The notes below the pieces were generated by a model that was given only the letters and a program-made list of their open reading frames with translations, ran no database searches and was not told the DNA's origin. This document shows, piece by piece, positions 137-11,980 of a DNA stretch of 36,824 nucleotides (position 1 is its first letter; each line of letters opens with the position of its first letter). Both the position numbers and the translations under genes were made by a program. The DNA is from Cetobacterium somerae ATCC BAA-474 (lineage in GTDB: Bacteria > Fusobacteriota > Fusobacteriia > Fusobacteriales > Fusobacteriaceae), in NCBI RefSeq assembly GCF_000479045.1, contig NZ_KI518223.1, forward strand, positions 1 to 36,824. Direction: 5' to 3'.

Positions 137-210
137 AAGAGGAGGAACTTTATGAAATGATTTAAATGAAATGTAAAAACTTTTAGGTTAAAAGTTATAA
201 AAAAGTTCCT
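137..210 (+). promoter_or_regulatory. Structured leader RNA, copy 1 (shared with 10582-10659)
   Basis: The closing helix pairs 143-151 (AGGAACTTT) with 202-210 (AAAGTTCCT), nine perfect pairs. Inside it a second hairpin pairs 178-184 (AACTTTT) with 190-196 (AAAAGTT) around an AGGTT loop. Between the helices lies TGAAATGATTTAAATGA. The block ACTTTTAGGTTAAAAGTT and most of the single-stranded core recur upstream of the rhodanese gene, while the closing helix differs in sequence but not in position, a covariation-like pattern. A GGAGG at 141-145 followed by ATG AAA TGA at 152-160 could be a tiny ORF. A further hairpin (247-253 with 260-266) just before the ribosome site of the S-component gene could be the expression platform. 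I do not recognise the RNA family. Confidence 0.7.
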
Positions 211-278
211 AAGTAAATGGAAATTATTACAGAAAATACATTAAGATTAGTTTAAGTGAAAACTAAGAAAGAGGAAGA

Positions 279-833
279 ATGAAAAGAAATACTTTATCGA
301 TAACAATATCAGCATTAGGAATAGGACTTAATATTATACTTGCAACATTAGCTAAAACCTTCAATATACCTTTTTTATTTTTAGACACAATAGGAACTAT
401 ACTTTCTGGAGCTTTGTTGGGACCATTTTTTGGAGGTATTACAGGTTTAATTACAAACGTAATAACAGCTATGGTAAATAATCCTATAGAACTACCATTT
501 GCTATAGTAAATATGATGATAGGAATAGTCGTTGGAATTATTTCAAAAAAATTTGGATTTACAATAAAAATAGCAGTTTTAACAGGAATTTTATTAGCAA
601 TTCTAGCTCCTTTAATTGGGACACCAATAGCTGTGTCATTATTTGGTGGATTAGCAGGAGGTTCAATGGATATATTAACAGGATGGCTAGTAAAAAGTGG
701 ACAAAAAATATTTACAGCAGCTTTTATTCCTAGAATAATGTCAAATTTAATTGATAAAATAGCTTCATGTGTGGTAGTGGCAATGATAATAAATAAACTT
801 CCTAATAACTTATTAAATAAAATAAGAGGGTAG
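279..833 (+). CDS. ECF transporter substrate-binding (S) component, CD3073-like
   Basis: A 184-aa, almost wholly hydrophobic protein with about six membrane segments. The early stretch LDTIGTILSGALLGPFFGGITG and the Gly-rich loops are typical of ECF S components, which bind a vitamin or other small ligand and hand it to the EcfA-EcfA'-EcfT module encoded just downstream. It resembles the S component paired with the TudS-like desulfidase in Clostridioides difficile (CD3073/CD3072 type, from memory). The start follows AAGAGGAAG. It is the first gene of a five-gene operon and its mRNA carries the structured leader. The substrate is unknown; the neighbouring desulfidase suggests a sulfur-containing compound (inference). 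Confidence 0.82.
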   Translation: MKRNTLSITISALGIGLNIILATLAKTFNIPFLFLDTIGTILSGALLGPFFGGITGLITNVITAMVNNPIELPFAIVNMMIGIVVGIISKKFGFTIKIAVLTGILLAILAPLIGTPIAVSLFGGLAGGSMDILTGWLVKSGQKIFTAAFIPRIMSNLIDKIASCVVVAMIINKLPNNLLNKIRG

Positions 834-835
834 AT

Positions 836-1360
836 ATGGAAAGAGGAAAAAAAATTATTATTGTCTCTCACTGTATTTTAAATCAAAATTGTGTAGTAAA
901 GCCCTATGCAAAAAAACAGGATAACTTTTTAAAGTTTATAAAAAATTTTGTTTTAAATAATTATGGAATTATTCAACTTCCATGTCCAGAATTATTTATT
1001 TTAGGTTTGAAAAGATGGGGTCATGTAAAAGATCAGTTGGAATATCCTAATTTTAAAGCTGAATGTAAAGTGTTACTATATCCTATTATAAATCAAATAG
1101 AAATGTATATTAATTGTGGTTATAAAATAGATGGGATATACGGAATACAAGGTAGTCCAAGTTGTGGTGTCAATAAAACATGTAGAGGTAATTGGGAAGG
1201 TGAAGCAAGTTGTTATAAAAATTTAGATGATATTTTAAAAAGAGTTCATTTAGTTTCTGAAAAAGGAATTTTTATGGAAATTTTACAAGAGCTTTTAAAA
1301 GAAAAAAATATAGAAATAAATTTTTATGACATTGATGATTGGAGTGAAGAGATTGATTAA
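836..1360 (+). CDS. TudS-related putative desulfidase (CD3072-like)
   Basis: A 174-aa cytosolic protein. Three cysteine motifs match the pattern of TudS/DUF523 enzymes, which remove sulfur from thiouracil-type compounds using a 4Fe-4S cluster: SHC at Cys13, LPCPE at Cys50 and GSPSCG at Cys110. Five more cysteines (19, 77, 94, 116, 126) are present. It starts two bases after the S-component stop and overlaps the downstream ATPase gene, so it belongs to the importer operon. I infer that the importer brings in a thio-compound and this enzyme desulfurates it. The exact substrate cannot be read from sequence; a different sulfur or selenium substrate is possible. Confidence 0.78.
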   Translation: MERGKKIIIVSHCILNQNCVVKPYAKKQDNFLKFIKNFVLNNYGIIQLPCPELFILGLKRWGHVKDQLEYPNFKAECKVLLYPIINQIEMYINCGYKIDGIYGIQGSPSCGVNKTCRGNWEGEASCYKNLDDILKRVHLVSEKGIFMEILQELLKEKNIEINFYDIDDWSEEID

Positions 1361-2165
1361 ATTAGAATCAATAAAATTTTCTTATAATCAAGAAATTATA
1401 TTCCAAGATTTTTCTATAAATTTTAAAAAAGGAAAATTTTATACTTTATTAGGGAAAAATGGCTCTGGAAAAAGTACTTTAATAAAATTAATTCTAGGTA
1501 TAGAAAAAGTAAGTCAAGGAAATATATATATAGATAATTTAAATATAAGAGAAAGTCTTTTTCAATGTAGAAAAAATATAGGAATAGTATTTCAAAATCC
1601 TGATGAACAACTTGTAACTGATATTGTAGAGGAAGAAATTGCTTTTTCGATGGAAAATTATGGATATAGTTCAGATTTTATGAAAAGAAAAGTAGAAAAA
1701 TTATTGAAAGAAATAGATTTTTTCGAAAAAAAGAATGAAAAGATATCTAAATTATCAGGGGGAGAAAAACAAAGAGTTTGTATAGCTTCTTCTTTAGTTT
1801 TAGACCCTAAAATTTTAATACTAGATGAAGGAACGGCGATGCTCGACCCAGAAAATAGAAAAATAATACTAGATATATTAAGAAATTTAAGTAATAAAGG
1901 GATGACAGTGATTTTAGTAACTCATCATTTAAATGAAATAGAATTTTGTGATGAAGTTATTTATCTTGAAAAAAATAAAATCAATTTTAACGGGCCTAAA
2001 AAGCTTTTTATGAGCTTTCTTGTAAAAAATGAGATAGACCAAGGGATAGAGTTACCTCCTATGTTTAAAGTCGCTAGAAGCATTTATTTAAGAACTAAAA
2101 AGGATGTTTCAGAAGATATTTTTAATTTAAATAAAATGGGGGAGCATTTATGGAAATCTCTTTAA
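1353..2165 (+). CDS. ecfA1: ECF transporter ATPase (EcfA1-type)
   Basis: An ABC ATPase of 270 residues from the chosen start. Walker A GKNGSGKST is at about 34-42, the Q-loop reads FQNPDEQL, the signature is LSGGEKQR and Walker B is ILILDEGTAMLDP with the catalytic Glu; the switch His is in VTHH. The EGTAMLDP variant is typical of EcfA1 rather than of ordinary importers. I prefer the TTG at 1353 because GGAG at 1341-1344 lies eight bases upstream; an in-frame ATG at 1326 would lengthen the protein by nine residues but has no ribosome site. It overlaps the desulfidase gene by 8 nt and the next ATPase gene by 16 nt, consistent with translational coupling. Confidence 0.85.
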   Translation: MIKLESIKFSYNQEIIFQDFSINFKKGKFYTLLGKNGSGKSTLIKLILGIEKVSQGNIYIDNLNIRESLFQCRKNIGIVFQNPDEQLVTDIVEEEIAFSMENYGYSSDFMKRKVEKLLKEIDFFEKKNEKISKLSGGEKQRVCIASSLVLDPKILILDEGTAMLDPENRKIILDILRNLSNKGMTVILVTHHLNEIEFCDEVIYLEKNKINFNGPKKLFMSFLVKNEIDQGIELPPMFKVARSIYLRTKKDVSEDIFNLNKMGEHLWKSL

Positions 2166-2950
2166 AAAAAGTTAACTCAGGATATGATGAGATAATTTTG
2201 GAAAATGTCAATATGGAAATAGAAGAATGTTCATGGACATTTATAATAGGAAAAACAGGTAGTGGAAAATCAACACTTTTACAAACTATAGGATTTTTAT
2301 TGAATAATATTCAAGGAGAAATCTTGTGGAAAGGAATTAATTTATCTAATTCTCAAAACTTAAAAAAATTTAGAGAAGCTACAGGATATATGTTTCAATA
2401 TACTGAGAAACAATTTTTTAATAATACAATAAAAGAAGAGATTGAGTATATTTTAATTAAGAAAAAAGTTTCTAGAGAAGAAATTGATAGAAATGTAAAT
2501 GAAGTTCTAAAACTTTTGAAACTATCTAACGAAATTTTAAATAAATCTCCATATGAAATAAGTGGAGGTCAAAAAAGATTAGTTGCATTAGCATCAATTT
2601 TAGTCACTTCTCCTAAATTATTATTATTAGATGAACCAACTGCGGGATTAGATTTAGAAAATAAAAAGTTATTTTTTGATGTCTTAAAACAATTAAAAAA
2701 TAAAGGAGTTACAATTATACAAATATCTCATTTATTTGAGGATGTTTTAGAATATGGGGATAAAGTTTTTTTATTAGAAAATAAAAAAATTATAAATGAA
2801 GGAGTTCCCTTAAAAGTTTTAGAGAAATCTGACTTAGAATTTATAGAATTTTGTAAAATTATTAATAAATTTGGAATAGAAACAGAAAATATAAAAAACA
2901 TAGATGAATTATTAGAGAGGATTGGGATAGATGCTAAAGAAAGATTTTGA
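2150..2950 (+). CDS. ecfA2: ECF transporter ATPase (EcfA2-type)
   Basis: A 266-aa ABC ATPase. Walker A GKTGSGKST is at 34-42, the Q-loop reads MFQYTEKQFF, the signature is ISGGQKRLVALASI and Walker B is LLLLDEPTAGLD. The GGQKR-VA-A form is characteristic of EcfA2 subunits, which form a heterodimer with EcfA1 and dock onto the EcfT coupling helices. GGGGGAG lies seven to eight bases before the ATG. The start overlaps the first ATPase gene and the end overlaps ecfT by 20 nt. The intact catalytic residues predict an active ATPase. Confidence 0.87.
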   Translation: MEISLKKVNSGYDEIILENVNMEIEECSWTFIIGKTGSGKSTLLQTIGFLLNNIQGEILWKGINLSNSQNLKKFREATGYMFQYTEKQFFNNTIKEEIEYILIKKKVSREEIDRNVNEVLKLLKLSNEILNKSPYEISGGQKRLVALASILVTSPKLLLLDEPTAGLDLENKKLFFDVLKQLKNKGVTIIQISHLFEDVLEYGDKVFLLENKKIINEGVPLKVLEKSDLEFIEFCKIINKFGIETENIKNIDELLERIGIDAKERF

Positions 2951-3647
2951 CCCTCGAATAGTATTTTATACAACTATAGGTTATATTATAGCAATTGGTT
3001 TTGCAAATAAATATTATCAGATAATTATAATTTTACCATTTATATTTTATCAAATGAAATTATTTTCAGCTGACTTAAACAAATTAAAAAGAATATTCAA
3101 GTATTCAATAGGACTTTTACTATCAATGATATTTGTAAATTTGCTCTTAATGAATAAAAATATAGAATATGTATTTCTTTCTACTTTTAGACTTTTAACA
3201 ATTATTTTGTTAGTTACCTCTATGGTTTCTAAAATGGAGATTAGAGAGATTGGATTTGTAATAGAGAAGATGTTATCACCTTTAAAAATATTTAAAGTTC
3301 CAGTTGACTCAATAGGAGTTATAACAGCTTTGGCATTTAAATTTATTCCAATGTTAGAAGAAGAAAGCAAAAGAATAATAATAGCTCAAAAAGCAAGAGG
3401 CATTGATTATAAATTGATGAATCTGAAAGAAAAAATTAGCAATATTTTAACACTATTTTTTCCAGTGGTTATTTGTGGAATACAAAATGCAGTAAATTTA
3501 GCAATATCTATGGAAGTTAGAGGATATGGAAATGGGATTAAAAGAACTAGATTAAAAGATTATAAATTAGAAAAAAAAGATTATTTGTATTTTTTCTTTA
3601 CTTTAATAATTTCTATTCTGTTTATTCTATTTTGCTTGTTTGCTTAA
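2931..3647 (+). CDS. ecfT: ECF transporter transmembrane coupling subunit EcfT
   Basis: A 238-aa membrane protein with hydrophobic segments at both ends and a cytosolic coupling region. That region carries the two family motifs, ARG at 155-157 (AQKARGIDY) and VRG at 196-198 (SMEVRGYG), which contact the two EcfA subunits. It is the last gene of the operon; a terminator follows within 50 bp. Because its own S component is in the operon, this looks like a dedicated (group I) ECF transporter rather than a shared module, although sharing with distant S components cannot be excluded. Confidence 0.86.
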   Translation: MLKKDFDPRIVFYTTIGYIIAIGFANKYYQIIIILPFIFYQMKLFSADLNKLKRIFKYSIGLLLSMIFVNLLLMNKNIEYVFLSTFRLLTIILLVTSMVSKMEIREIGFVIEKMLSPLKIFKVPVDSIGVITALAFKFIPMLEEESKRIIIAQKARGIDYKLMNLKEKISNILTLFFPVVICGIQNAVNLAISMEVRGYGNGIKRTRLKDYKLEKKDYLYFFFTLIISILFILFCLFA

Positions 3648-3650
3648 AAT

Positions 3651-3694
3651 AAAAAAGCTAAGGTAACTCTTATGGAGTTGCCTTAGCTTTTTTT
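3651..3694. terminator. Bidirectional terminator between ecfT and racemase genes
   Basis: AAAAAGCTAAGGTAACTC pairs with GAGTTGCCTTAGCTTTTT (one G-U) around a short loop, with A and T runs on the two sides. The racemase stop codon (3670-3672) lies in the hairpin loop. Confidence 0.9.
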
Positions 3695-4365
3695 ATAGCT
3701 GATAGAGCTAAAATTTCAGTGGGATCATAAAAATTTCCTTTGATTTTAAACATATTCATAGCAATTGGAAGTTCTGTACAACCTAAAATTATATTATCAA
3801 TATTTTTTTCTTTAAATTTTTCAATTATATTTATTATTTTTATATGATTATAATTAAGTTGGTTATTTTTTATAACATTATAAATTAAATGCATAAGTTC
3901 TAAGATGTCTTCTTCTTCAGGAGGAATAATCTCAATATTGTACTTATTAAAAATATTTTGATATATATTTCCTTTTAAAGTTCCTATTGTGGAAAATAAT
4001 GCTATTCTTTTTATATTAGGACTTTTATTTAGGATAAATTTAGCAGTTTCATCAATCATATTTAAAACTGGAATATTGATTGCTTTAGTTAAATCATTGT
4101 AAAAATAGTGAGCAGTATTACAAGGCATTATAAGGAAATCTGCCCCTGATTTTTCTAAAGTTTTAGCTGAAAGAATAATCTCTTCTAATGGACTTTCTCC
4201 GATTCCTAGAATAGCAGACGTTCTATCAGGAATTTTAGTATTATTATCAATAATTATTGGAATATGTTCATTATCACATTTGGCATCACTTGCTTTAATA
4301 ATTTTTGTAAAAAGATCTGCTGTAGCTAATGGTCCCATTCCACCTATAATTCCAATTTTTTTCAT
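3670..4365 (-). CDS. Aspartate/glutamate racemase family amino-acid racemase
   Basis: A 231-aa cytosolic enzyme beginning KKIGIIGGMGPLATADLF, the N-terminal signature of cofactor-independent Asp/Glu-type racemases. Both catalytic cysteine motifs are present: MPCNTAHYF (about residue 82) and ILGCTELPIA (about 195). These two cysteines act as the acid/base pair that inverts the alpha carbon. It is the last gene of a minus-strand operon after a DUF4438 protein and an oligopeptide-type binding protein. I infer a role in using an imported amino acid or peptide, possibly a D-amino acid. Exact substrate (Asp, Glu or broad) is not determinable. Confidence 0.88.
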   Translation of the reverse strand: MKKIGIIGGMGPLATADLFTKIIKASDAKCDNEHIPIIIDNNTKIPDRTSAILGIGESPLEEIILSAKTLEKSGADFLIMPCNTAHYFYNDLTKAINIPVLNMIDETAKFILNKSPNIKRIALFSTIGTLKGNIYQNIFNKYNIEIIPPEEEDILELMHLIYNVIKNNQLNYNHIKIINIIEKFKEKNIDNIILGCTELPIAMNMFKIKGNFYDPTEILALSAIKKAKATP

Positions 4366-10581: not shown

Positions 10582-10659
10582 GTGAGGTGATTGCTTTGAA
10601 ATGAGTTAACTGAGGATGGGACTTTTAGGTTAAAAGTTAAAAATTTATTTGGCAAAGTG
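10582..10659 (+). promoter_or_regulatory. Structured leader RNA, copy 2 (shared with 137-210)
   Basis: The closing helix pairs 10592-10598 (TGCTTTG) with 10653-10659 (CAAAGTG), seven pairs with two G-U. The inner hairpin pairs ACTTTT (10621-10626) with AAAAGT (10632-10637) around AGGTT and is identical to copy 1. The core TGAAATGA-G-TTAA-C-TGA matches copy 1 at 15 of 17 positions. The Shine-Dalgarno-like GAGGTGAT (10584-10591) stands before TTG AAA TGA (10596-10604). The rhodanese ribosome site AGGGAG begins 20 nt past the closing helix. The family is not recognised. Confidence 0.7.
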
Positions 10660-10693
10660 TTGTCTTAAAATATAAGTTAGGGAGAAGTACAAA

Positions 10694-11980
10694 ATGAAAA
10701 AAATATTATTTTTACTAATAATTTTATCAACAATTTTATTAGGAAAGGATATCAAAACTAATGAATTACTAAAAAATCTTAATAATCCTGAATGGATTAT
10801 AGTTGATACAAGAGATAGTAATGAATATAATGGATGGAATTTATCTAATCTAAAAATAAATGGACATATAAAAGGAGCTACTGATTTATCTGCTAATTGG
10901 TTAAAGACAAAATATTTGAACTCTAATAATAAAGAGATATTAAAGCAAAGAGTTTTAGAAAAAGGAATTATACCAGAAAAAAATATTGTTTTATATGGAA
11001 CATCTACAGAAATGAAAGATGTAGAGAAATACTTAAAAGAAAATGGTGTAAAAAATATTTATTTTTATGATTTTGAAAAAAATAAAGATTATGATAGATT
11101 ACCTTTTGAAACATACAAGAATTATGAAATTTTAGTTCCAGCAACTTGGGTAAAAAATGCTATGGACAAAAATGAGATTAAGGTTTTTGAAGTATCTTGG
11201 GGAAGTATAAAAGATGCTGCTGTATATTTAGCTGGGCATATTCCAGGAGCACCACATATTAATACAGATAGTATAGAGCCACCACCAAAATGGATGCTAA
11301 ATACGGATGAAAATTTAATTAAATTTGCGGAAGAGATGGGAATATCTAAAAATGATAGAGTTGTTCTTTATGGTGAAAATGTTATGGCATCATATAGATT
11401 AGCTATAATTTTAAAATATCTTGGAGTAAAAGATGTAAGAGTTTTAAATGGCGGTTTAGATGCTTGGAAAGATGCAGGATACAAAACAGAAATGGGAATT
11501 GTTAAACCAACTCCAATTAAAGATTTTGGATCTAAAACTCCTTTAAATAAAAGTTTAATAGTAAATGAAAATGGAGCAAAGCAAGTTTTAAAAGATAATA
11601 AAAATTCAAAACTTTTAGTAGATATTAGATCATACAATGAGAGAATTGGAAAAGAATCAGGATATTCATATATGGATAGAAAAGGCAGAATTACAGGATC
11701 TGTATGGGGAAAATCTGGAACTAAATCAACAACATTGGAAGACTATAGAAATATTGATAATACAATGAGAAACGGTTATGAAATTATCTCTATGTGGTCT
11801 GGATTAGGAATTAATACAAATAAAGAGTTAACATTTTTCTGTGGATCGGGATGGAGAGCAGCAGAAGTATTATTTTATTCTCAAGTGATGGGATTAAAAA
11901 ATAATGCTCTTTATTCCAATGGTTGGATGGAATGGAGTGAAGATAGTTCAAATCCAATTGAAACAGGGATAGAGAACTAA
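10694..11980 (+). CDS. Exported rhodanese-type sulfurtransferase with three domains
   Basis: A 428-aa protein with a Sec signal peptide (MKKILFLLIILSTILLG, no lipobox) and three rhodanese repeats, at about 20-145, 150-275 and 285-425. Only the third has an active-site cysteine, in CGSGWRA at Cys383; the equivalent loops of the first two read YGTSTEMKD and YGENVMASY. It should move sulfane sulfur from thiosulfate, mercaptopyruvate or a similar donor to a thiol or cyanide acceptor in the periplasm. The inactive repeats may be structural or bind ligand. GGGAG lies nine bases before the ATG. It is a single-gene transcript with the structured leader and its own terminator. Substrate is undetermined. 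Confidence 0.88.
   Translation: MKKILFLLIILSTILLGKDIKTNELLKNLNNPEWIIVDTRDSNEYNGWNLSNLKINGHIKGATDLSANWLKTKYLNSNNKEILKQRVLEKGIIPEKNIVLYGTSTEMKDVEKYLKENGVKNIYFYDFEKNKDYDRLPFETYKNYEILVPATWVKNAMDKNEIKVFEVSWGSIKDAAVYLAGHIPGAPHINTDSIEPPPKWMLNTDENLIKFAEEMGISKNDRVVLYGENVMASYRLAIILKYLGVKDVRVLNGGLDAWKDAGYKTEMGIVKPTPIKDFGSKTPLNKSLIVNENGAKQVLKDNKNSKLLVDIRSYNERIGKESGYSYMDRKGRITGSVWGKSGTKSTTLEDYRNIDNTMRNGYEIISMWSGLGINTNKELTFFCGSGWRAAEVLFYSQVMGLKNNALYSNGWMEWSEDSSNPIETGIEN

Follow-up and report, generated by a model that had tools for sequence, protein, structure and literature searches.

Two leaders on a Cetobacterium somerae plasmid

The window, a 36,824-nt stretch of DNA, is a plasmid of Cetobacterium somerae, a fish-gut bacterium, and contains two leaders on the plus strand: leader 1 at 137-210, ahead of an ECF importer operon, and leader 2 at 10582-10659, ahead of an exported rhodanese gene. 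The gene presumed to be controlled by leader 1 encodes a CD3073 family ECF transporter S component (279..833, +; NF045596, 224 bits against a cut-off of 180). It is followed by a gene for a CD3072 family TudS-related putative desulfidase (836..1360, +; NF045597, 189 bits against a cut-off of 130) and, in the same operon, by two ECF ATPases (1326-2165 and 2150-2950, +) and an ECF T component (2931-3647, +), these last three genes together spanning 1326..3647. The gene presumed to be controlled by leader 2 (10694..11980, +) encodes an exported rhodanese-domain protein of 428 aa (PF00581) that also weakly matches the rhodanese-related (seleno)protein NF041203. On the same plasmid stretch, a protein encoded at 3670-4365 (-) matches the cysteate racemase CuyB above the cut-off. 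The plasmid record examined annotates the CD3073-family S component, the CD3072-family TudS-related desulfidase and the rhodanese, and leaves both leaders unannotated.

The initial annotation described two leaders of like architecture with a common 18-mer, and both are present: the 3.07 Mb genome contains two exact copies of ACTTTTAGGTTAAAAGTT and no more, one at 179-196 and one at 10621-10638. Leader 1 recurs at 100% identity in NZ_CP143323.1, which also carries this ECF operon and the rhodanese gene; in NZ_CP092522.1 the identity is 92%. Because leader-type elements recur in related genomes (E 1e-14 to 1e-6) with covariation, the element is more than a chance similarity. Its description as an unrecognised structured leader common to chalcogen-related transcripts also holds, with covarying helices and no Rfam family, whether T-box or other riboswitch, above the gathering threshold; at a relaxed E-value, Rfam yields chance matches only.

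A leader ORF with two in-frame UGA codons

The segment TGAAATGA-N-TTAA-N-TGA, at first taken for a riboswitch core, is instead a start codon preceded by a Shine-Dalgarno (SD) sequence and followed by two in-frame UGA codons, content that the earlier reading overlooked along with a second conserved hairpin (247-266; 10651-10664). In leader 1, the SD AGGAGG (140..145, +) precedes leader ORF 1 (152..244, +; stop at 242-244) in the layout AGGAGG-N6-ATG AAA TGA TTT AAA TGA. Its UGA codons at 158..160 and 167..169 (+) are predicted to encode selenocysteine (Sec), and reading through both gives MKUFKUNVKTFRLKVIKKFLSKWKLLQKIH*. In leader 2, the SD GAGGTG (10584..10589, +) precedes leader ORF 2 (10596..10628, +) in the layout GAGGTG-N6-TTG AAA TGA GTT AAC TGA, continuing GGA TGG GAC TTT TAG; with the predicted Sec codons at 10602..10604 and 10611..10613 (+), the product reads MKUVNUGWDF*.

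The same plan recurs throughout: an SD, a start codon, 1-4 codons, UGA, 1-2 codons, UGA, and then a hairpin, which in the window copies is the 18-base one with loop AGGUU. A purine-rich SD ahead of a start and two in-frame UGAs is present in 26/26 tabulated leaders; in genus g1 the conservation of the UGAs partly reflects the search model. The five leaders located by homology of the CD3073 gene alone (G002, G006, G009, G031, G025) keep the SD, the start and both UGAs, and vary in codon 2 and in the codons between the UGAs. A composite scan of 2.5 Mb of DNA, combining an SD, a start, UGA-x(1-2)-UGA and a stem with an N-GG-N-N' loop, returns 25 distinct matches, every one a leader; replacing UGA by UAA/UAG, or shuffling the sequence, gives 0 matches. 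Since the 2.5 Mb is enriched for leaders, the scan shows specificity rather than genome-wide frequency. UGA is the rarest stop in the leader loci, ending 7/116 long ORFs (a count for which the output gives 1, 3 and 4 UGA stops in overlapping sets), yet it is invariant in the leaders. The prediction that the leader ORF encodes Sec at its UGAs is well supported by sequence.

Two other readings of the mini-ORF were weighed. An RF2-specific codon kept invariant would suit a minimal ORF whose tandem UGA stops respond to the level of RF2 and not to selenium; this is highly improbable, given that the leaders are confined to genomes with SelB and SelD, neighbour selenium-linked genes, carry a SECIS-type hairpin at Sec-type spacing, and for the most part lack the prfB-type CUU-UGA context. 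Equally hard to credit is a functional, non-regulatory micro-selenoprotein (UxxU/UxU): the two Sec codons are spaced like a redox or metal motif, but no peptide conservation extends beyond the UGAs, some products have 9-10 residues (MKUVNUGWDF), and the ORF invariably forms part of another gene's 5' leader and is followed by hairpin 2.

The SECIS-type hairpin

A SECIS is the element that lets a bacterial UGA be read as selenocysteine. Hairpin 1 of leader 1 (178..196, +) consists of AACTTTT, loop AGGTT and AAAAGTT, with its loop 24 nt from the first UGA and 15 nt from the second; that of leader 2 (10620..10638, +) consists of GACTTTT, loop AGGTT and AAAAGTT, at 22 and 13 nt. The published bSECIS model has a loop N1-G[G/U]-N-N2, a stem of 4-16 bp and 16-37 nt from UGA to loop (PMC13188914). 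Hairpin 1 fits the stem and loop pattern, in leader 1 as in the others, with stems of 5-9 bp and loops AGGUU, AGGCU, AGGGU, UGGAA, UGGGA and UGGAG. The distance from the first UGA to the loop is 19-24 nt in 26/26 leaders, inside the published range, and that from the second is 13, 15 or 17 nt, mostly under 16; two UGAs to one SECIS is an unusual arrangement. In the aligned stems 93.7% of cells are paired and 16 are changed on both sides, covariation that far exceeds shuffled and slid controls, with 0/500 shuffles as high; as the sequences are related, such shuffle counts are not probabilities.

The published folding-energy limit of -7.5 kcal/mol or lower (PMC13188914) is not reached, the hairpin alone giving -2.0 to -7.0 and the segment from first UGA to hairpin -3.0 to -8.1 kcal/mol. 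This limit discriminates poorly here, because SelD SECIS elements of the same family span -5.0 to -10.8 kcal/mol and several of them also miss it. The leaders resemble bSECIS-dependent genes in the in-frame UGA, the 3' hairpin with its N1-GG-N-N2 loop, the spacing of the first UGA and the Sec machinery of the host; they differ in placing the hairpin in a tiny 5' leader ORF instead of a protein gene, in having two UGAs per hairpin, in weaker folding energy, and in the second conserved hairpin that follows. Genus g4 (G014) has six leaders of the same plan with an unrelated SECIS stem, UUACUUC-UGG[A/G]A-GAAGUAA, standing before rhodanese, double-cubane and ABC genes.

Selenocysteine machinery in the host genomes

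The window's own genome (G000) holds selA, selB, selD with an in-frame UGA, tRNA-Sec and YedF in one region, and on this gene content it is confidently predicted to decode UGA as Sec. The leader-bearing genomes carry SelB and SelD; the check for SelA and tRNA-Sec covered the window's own genome. Nearly every SelD-positive member of the Fusobacteriaceae has a SelD gene with an in-frame UGA; genera g14 and g9 have Cys in its place, together with a changed hairpin. The SelD selenoprotein motif GGUASKI is found at L060 (10380-10474, -) and at L145-L174, and plain ORF calling misplaces the SelD start because SelD is a selenoprotein with an in-frame UGA.

About 200 nt after the hairpin of the Sao leader in G036 (locus L111) lies an unannotated thioredoxin-like ORF with an in-frame UGA, MKKILVEFIDVCAUCNKY..., which is probably SaoT. 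Its SECIS has a GUG loop, AAGUUUC-GUG-GAAACUU.

The second hairpin and the closing helix

Hairpin 2 of leader 1 (247..266, +) consists of TTAGTTT, loop AAGTGA and AAACTAA, directly 5' of the SD of the ECF gene, and that of leader 2 (10651..10664, +) of GGCA, loop AAGTGT and TGTC. Across leaders its loop is [A/G]AGUGN, on stems such as GACA/UGUC, UGCC/GGCA, UUAGUUU/AAACUAA, GAUAAA/UUUAUC and UUUAUC/GAUAAA. In an alignment of 21 hand-picked rows, from which G025rho was left out for a loop one base longer, 85.7% of cells are paired and 63 are changed on both sides, with 0/500 shuffles as high; the covariation is 0.97, whereas shuffles give 0.27 and slid versions 0.08-0.28. Hairpin 2 lies within 160 nt of hairpin 1 in 18/20 leaders, against 0.02 expected per window of search, and it stands before the ribosome-binding site of the main gene or before a terminator-like hairpin. 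Here too the sequences are related and the shuffle counts are no probabilities, but one loop carried on reversed stem pairs across genera is hard to explain otherwise.

These properties bear on a reading in which SelB binds the hairpins directly as a repressor, with hairpin 2, which has GU in its loop, as the operator, the mini-ORF secondary and Sec insertion unneeded. In its favour, no part covaries more strongly than hairpin 2, which is close to the main SD or a terminator, and the SECIS of the predicted SaoT-like selenoprotein gene of G036 has a GUG loop. Direct repression is nevertheless unlikely: SelB binding alone requires neither SD nor start nor UGAs, and every leader keeps the SD, the start and the two in-frame UGAs; moreover, the loop AAGUGN is not strictly within the published bSECIS loop rule.

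Several other roles for hairpin 2 were considered and rejected. As the start of a coupled second ORF, the loop GUG has neither frame nor downstream codons conserved; as a partner of tRNA-Sec, AGUG would need a CACU that this tRNA lacks; and as an IRE (CAGUGN), the loop has the wrong first base and the bulged C is absent.

A closing helix, formed between the leader SD-to-start region and the stretch 3' of hairpin 1, had been proposed for both window copies. It stands for leader 1, where AGGAACTTT (143..151, +), spanning the SD-to-start region of leader ORF 1, pairs with AAAGTTCCT (202..210, +; p=0.017 against shuffles), but is weak for leader 2 (p=0.15). Over 22 leaders, p<0.05 is found in 9, and the combined p is ~1e-6 with relatedness ignored. 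This helix and hairpin 2 are in competition in several rhodanese leaders, where the 3' strand of the one doubles as the 5' half of the other; in leader 2, the 5' half of hairpin 2, CAAAGTG, is able to pair alternatively with TGCTTTG at the leader start (10592-10598).

Covarying hairpins in the leaders of transport and sulfurtransferase genes, together with a closing helix, are also what a metabolite riboswitch for a sulfur or selenium compound would present, its ORF-like features being incidental. The suggestion of a sulfur-compound riboswitch is not supported, since what stays invariant is a ribosome-binding site with a start codon, two in-frame UGAs and then a SECIS-type hairpin. A riboswitch of either kind is quite improbable: conservation falls on codons and loop motifs, the sequence between the UGAs and the hairpin is free to vary among leaders, the diverged genus keeps the UGAs, SD and start and not the hairpin 1 sequence, and Rfam holds no match at its gathering threshold.

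Terminator-like hairpins can be read 3' of hairpin 2 in G036, G020 and G014, none of which was called by a consensus terminator scan; the window copies have no terminator-like hairpin. Sequestration of the main SD as a common switch gains no support from modelling, in which the predicted accessibility of that SD changes little with ribosome position and has no consistent direction across leaders. In the G014 leaders (L236, L239, L241, L243), a conserved hairpin GAUGC-UAAUG-GCAUC lies ~170-260 nt after the SECIS and is followed by CCAUA...UAUGG-CUUUUU, a pair that looks like an attenuator platform. Pairing with the leader SD is also conceivable for UCCCUUCU, which follows hairpin 2 in G014 leaders.

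Distribution and downstream genes

All 26 tabulated leaders belong to Fusobacteriaceae with selenocysteine machinery. Besides the five found by homology of the CD3073 gene, leaders were found with covariance models R2 and R3, the latter run over 389 genomes. They precede rhodanese genes (G002, G003, G005, G006, G007, G009, G025), double-cubane reductase genes (G004, G020, G025), the Sao operon (SaoE, SaoC, SaoX, SaoB) in G036, a sugar-type ABC system in G025 and a lipoprotein gene in G036. The G014 leaders came from a generic scan of the regions 5' of rhodanese and double-cubane orthologs and a subsequent pattern search; two of the six precede a 2-aminoethylphosphonate-type ABC importer and a membrane-protein gene, on a stretch that also has a methionine gamma-lyase homolog and rhodaneses. 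A further scan-found leader, in G007, precedes a PHP-domain gene and a solute-binding protein.

The covariance scan proposed at the outset yields further copies with covariation in Fusobacteriaceae, but none outside the family among the 389 genomes scanned with R3. R3 matches outside it, and those inside it at G003:C10, G093, G063 and G330, fall within ORFs or terminators and were discarded. In C. difficile, Tissierella, Sporomusa and others, the upstream regions of the CD3073 orthologs hold no such leader, and some orthologs of leader-bearing genes in SelB-positive relatives are without one. In genus g13 (Fusobacterium), CD3073 genes come with another kind of short leader ORF, which has an SD but no UGA-Sec codons (MKVFRQHNL; MRMFRQRNEKFLRGGNKLKKEK) and stands directly 5' of CD3073 at L012 (G048), L013/L014 (G023, G051) and L064 (F. 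mortiferum An814).

Among the downstream genes, the Sao operon and the double-cubane reductase have a published connection with selenium metabolism (PMC10418091); the rhodanese and the ECF proteins are candidates for a selenium role. CD3073 S components score above the cut-off in 12 SelB-positive genomes and 1 SelB-negative genome. Double-cubane genes adjoin rhodanese genes in G044, of genus g12, and CD3073 genes in G050. At G044:C2:1422416-1429104, and also in G033 and G040, genes for double-cubane reductase and periplasmic-type rhodanese alternate in one cluster, which suggests that the two may share one pathway. The genes behind the leaders may serve to acquire or mobilise selenium.

Proposed mechanism

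It is likely that the translated leader gauges the supply of Sec-tRNA and SelB and sets the expression of selenium-acquisition genes. The sensed quantity is most likely selenocysteinyl-tRNA rather than a thio-compound, because the SD, start, UGAs and SECIS-type hairpin are invariant and the host has the Sec machinery. At low Sec-tRNA, RF2 would stop translation of the leader at the first UGA, with 2-5 codons read. At high Sec-tRNA, SelB on hairpin 1 would bring Sec to the UGAs, and the ribosome would then enter and melt hairpin 1. A change in where the ribosome stands, in how far SelB occupies the RNA, or in both would be relayed to hairpin 2 and to the pairing around the leader start, which would set the output of the main gene.

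The read-through frame ends inside hairpin 1 (leader 2), just 5' of hairpin 2 (leader 1) or past the main start (G003, G005). The lack of a fixed end weighs against the model, and would place the decision at the UGAs and hairpin 1, or with SelB itself. Low selenium would switch on the ECF importer and desulfidase, the rhodanese, the double-cubane reductase, Sao and the other ABC systems. Induction in low selenium is the most likely direction, favoured because importers dominate the targets, although no steps of the model are less certain than this direction and the identity of the partner of hairpin 2; the Sao operon, with its predicted selenoprotein gene, could be read in the opposite direction.

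Relation to known systems and implications

Attenuators of the trp and his type have a short translated leader with tandem codons for the sensed nutrient. The present leaders likewise have a short ORF rich in the regulatory codon, a likeness in sequence features, and terminator-like hairpins in G036, G020 and G014; they differ in that the codon is UGA for Sec, that scarcity would terminate rather than stall translation, and that no common antiterminator is established. The 5' leader of E. coli selAB, studied by Thanbichler and Boeck in 2002, reportedly contains a SECIS-like hairpin bound by SelB that gives selenium-dependent control. The position of such a hairpin in a 5' leader is shared, whereas the E. 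coli element is not known to have a Sec-coding leader ORF and controls other genes. T-box leaders sense a tRNA through a codon-like element in the 5' leader, as proposed here for the Sec leaders, which differ in having an SD, a start and two in-frame UGAs and in lacking an Rfam T-box match.

No Sec-coding regulatory leader was found in the literature searched, subscription papers being outside its reach, so novelty is provisional. With that proviso, we think it reasonably probable that these are the first natural regulatory leaders to gauge selenium through Sec codons and a SECIS, their output module being a new class of hairpin, [A/G]AGUGN, and that they define a selenium regulon nominating dedicated importers (CD3073-type ECF with TudS-like desulfidase, and others). 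If so, a UGA-decoding leader would be a direct molecular gauge of selenium, and every gene that follows one would be a specific candidate, open to test, for a part in importing or mobilising selenium. UGA-SECIS mini-ORFs, which annotation does not see, may act as regulators elsewhere too.
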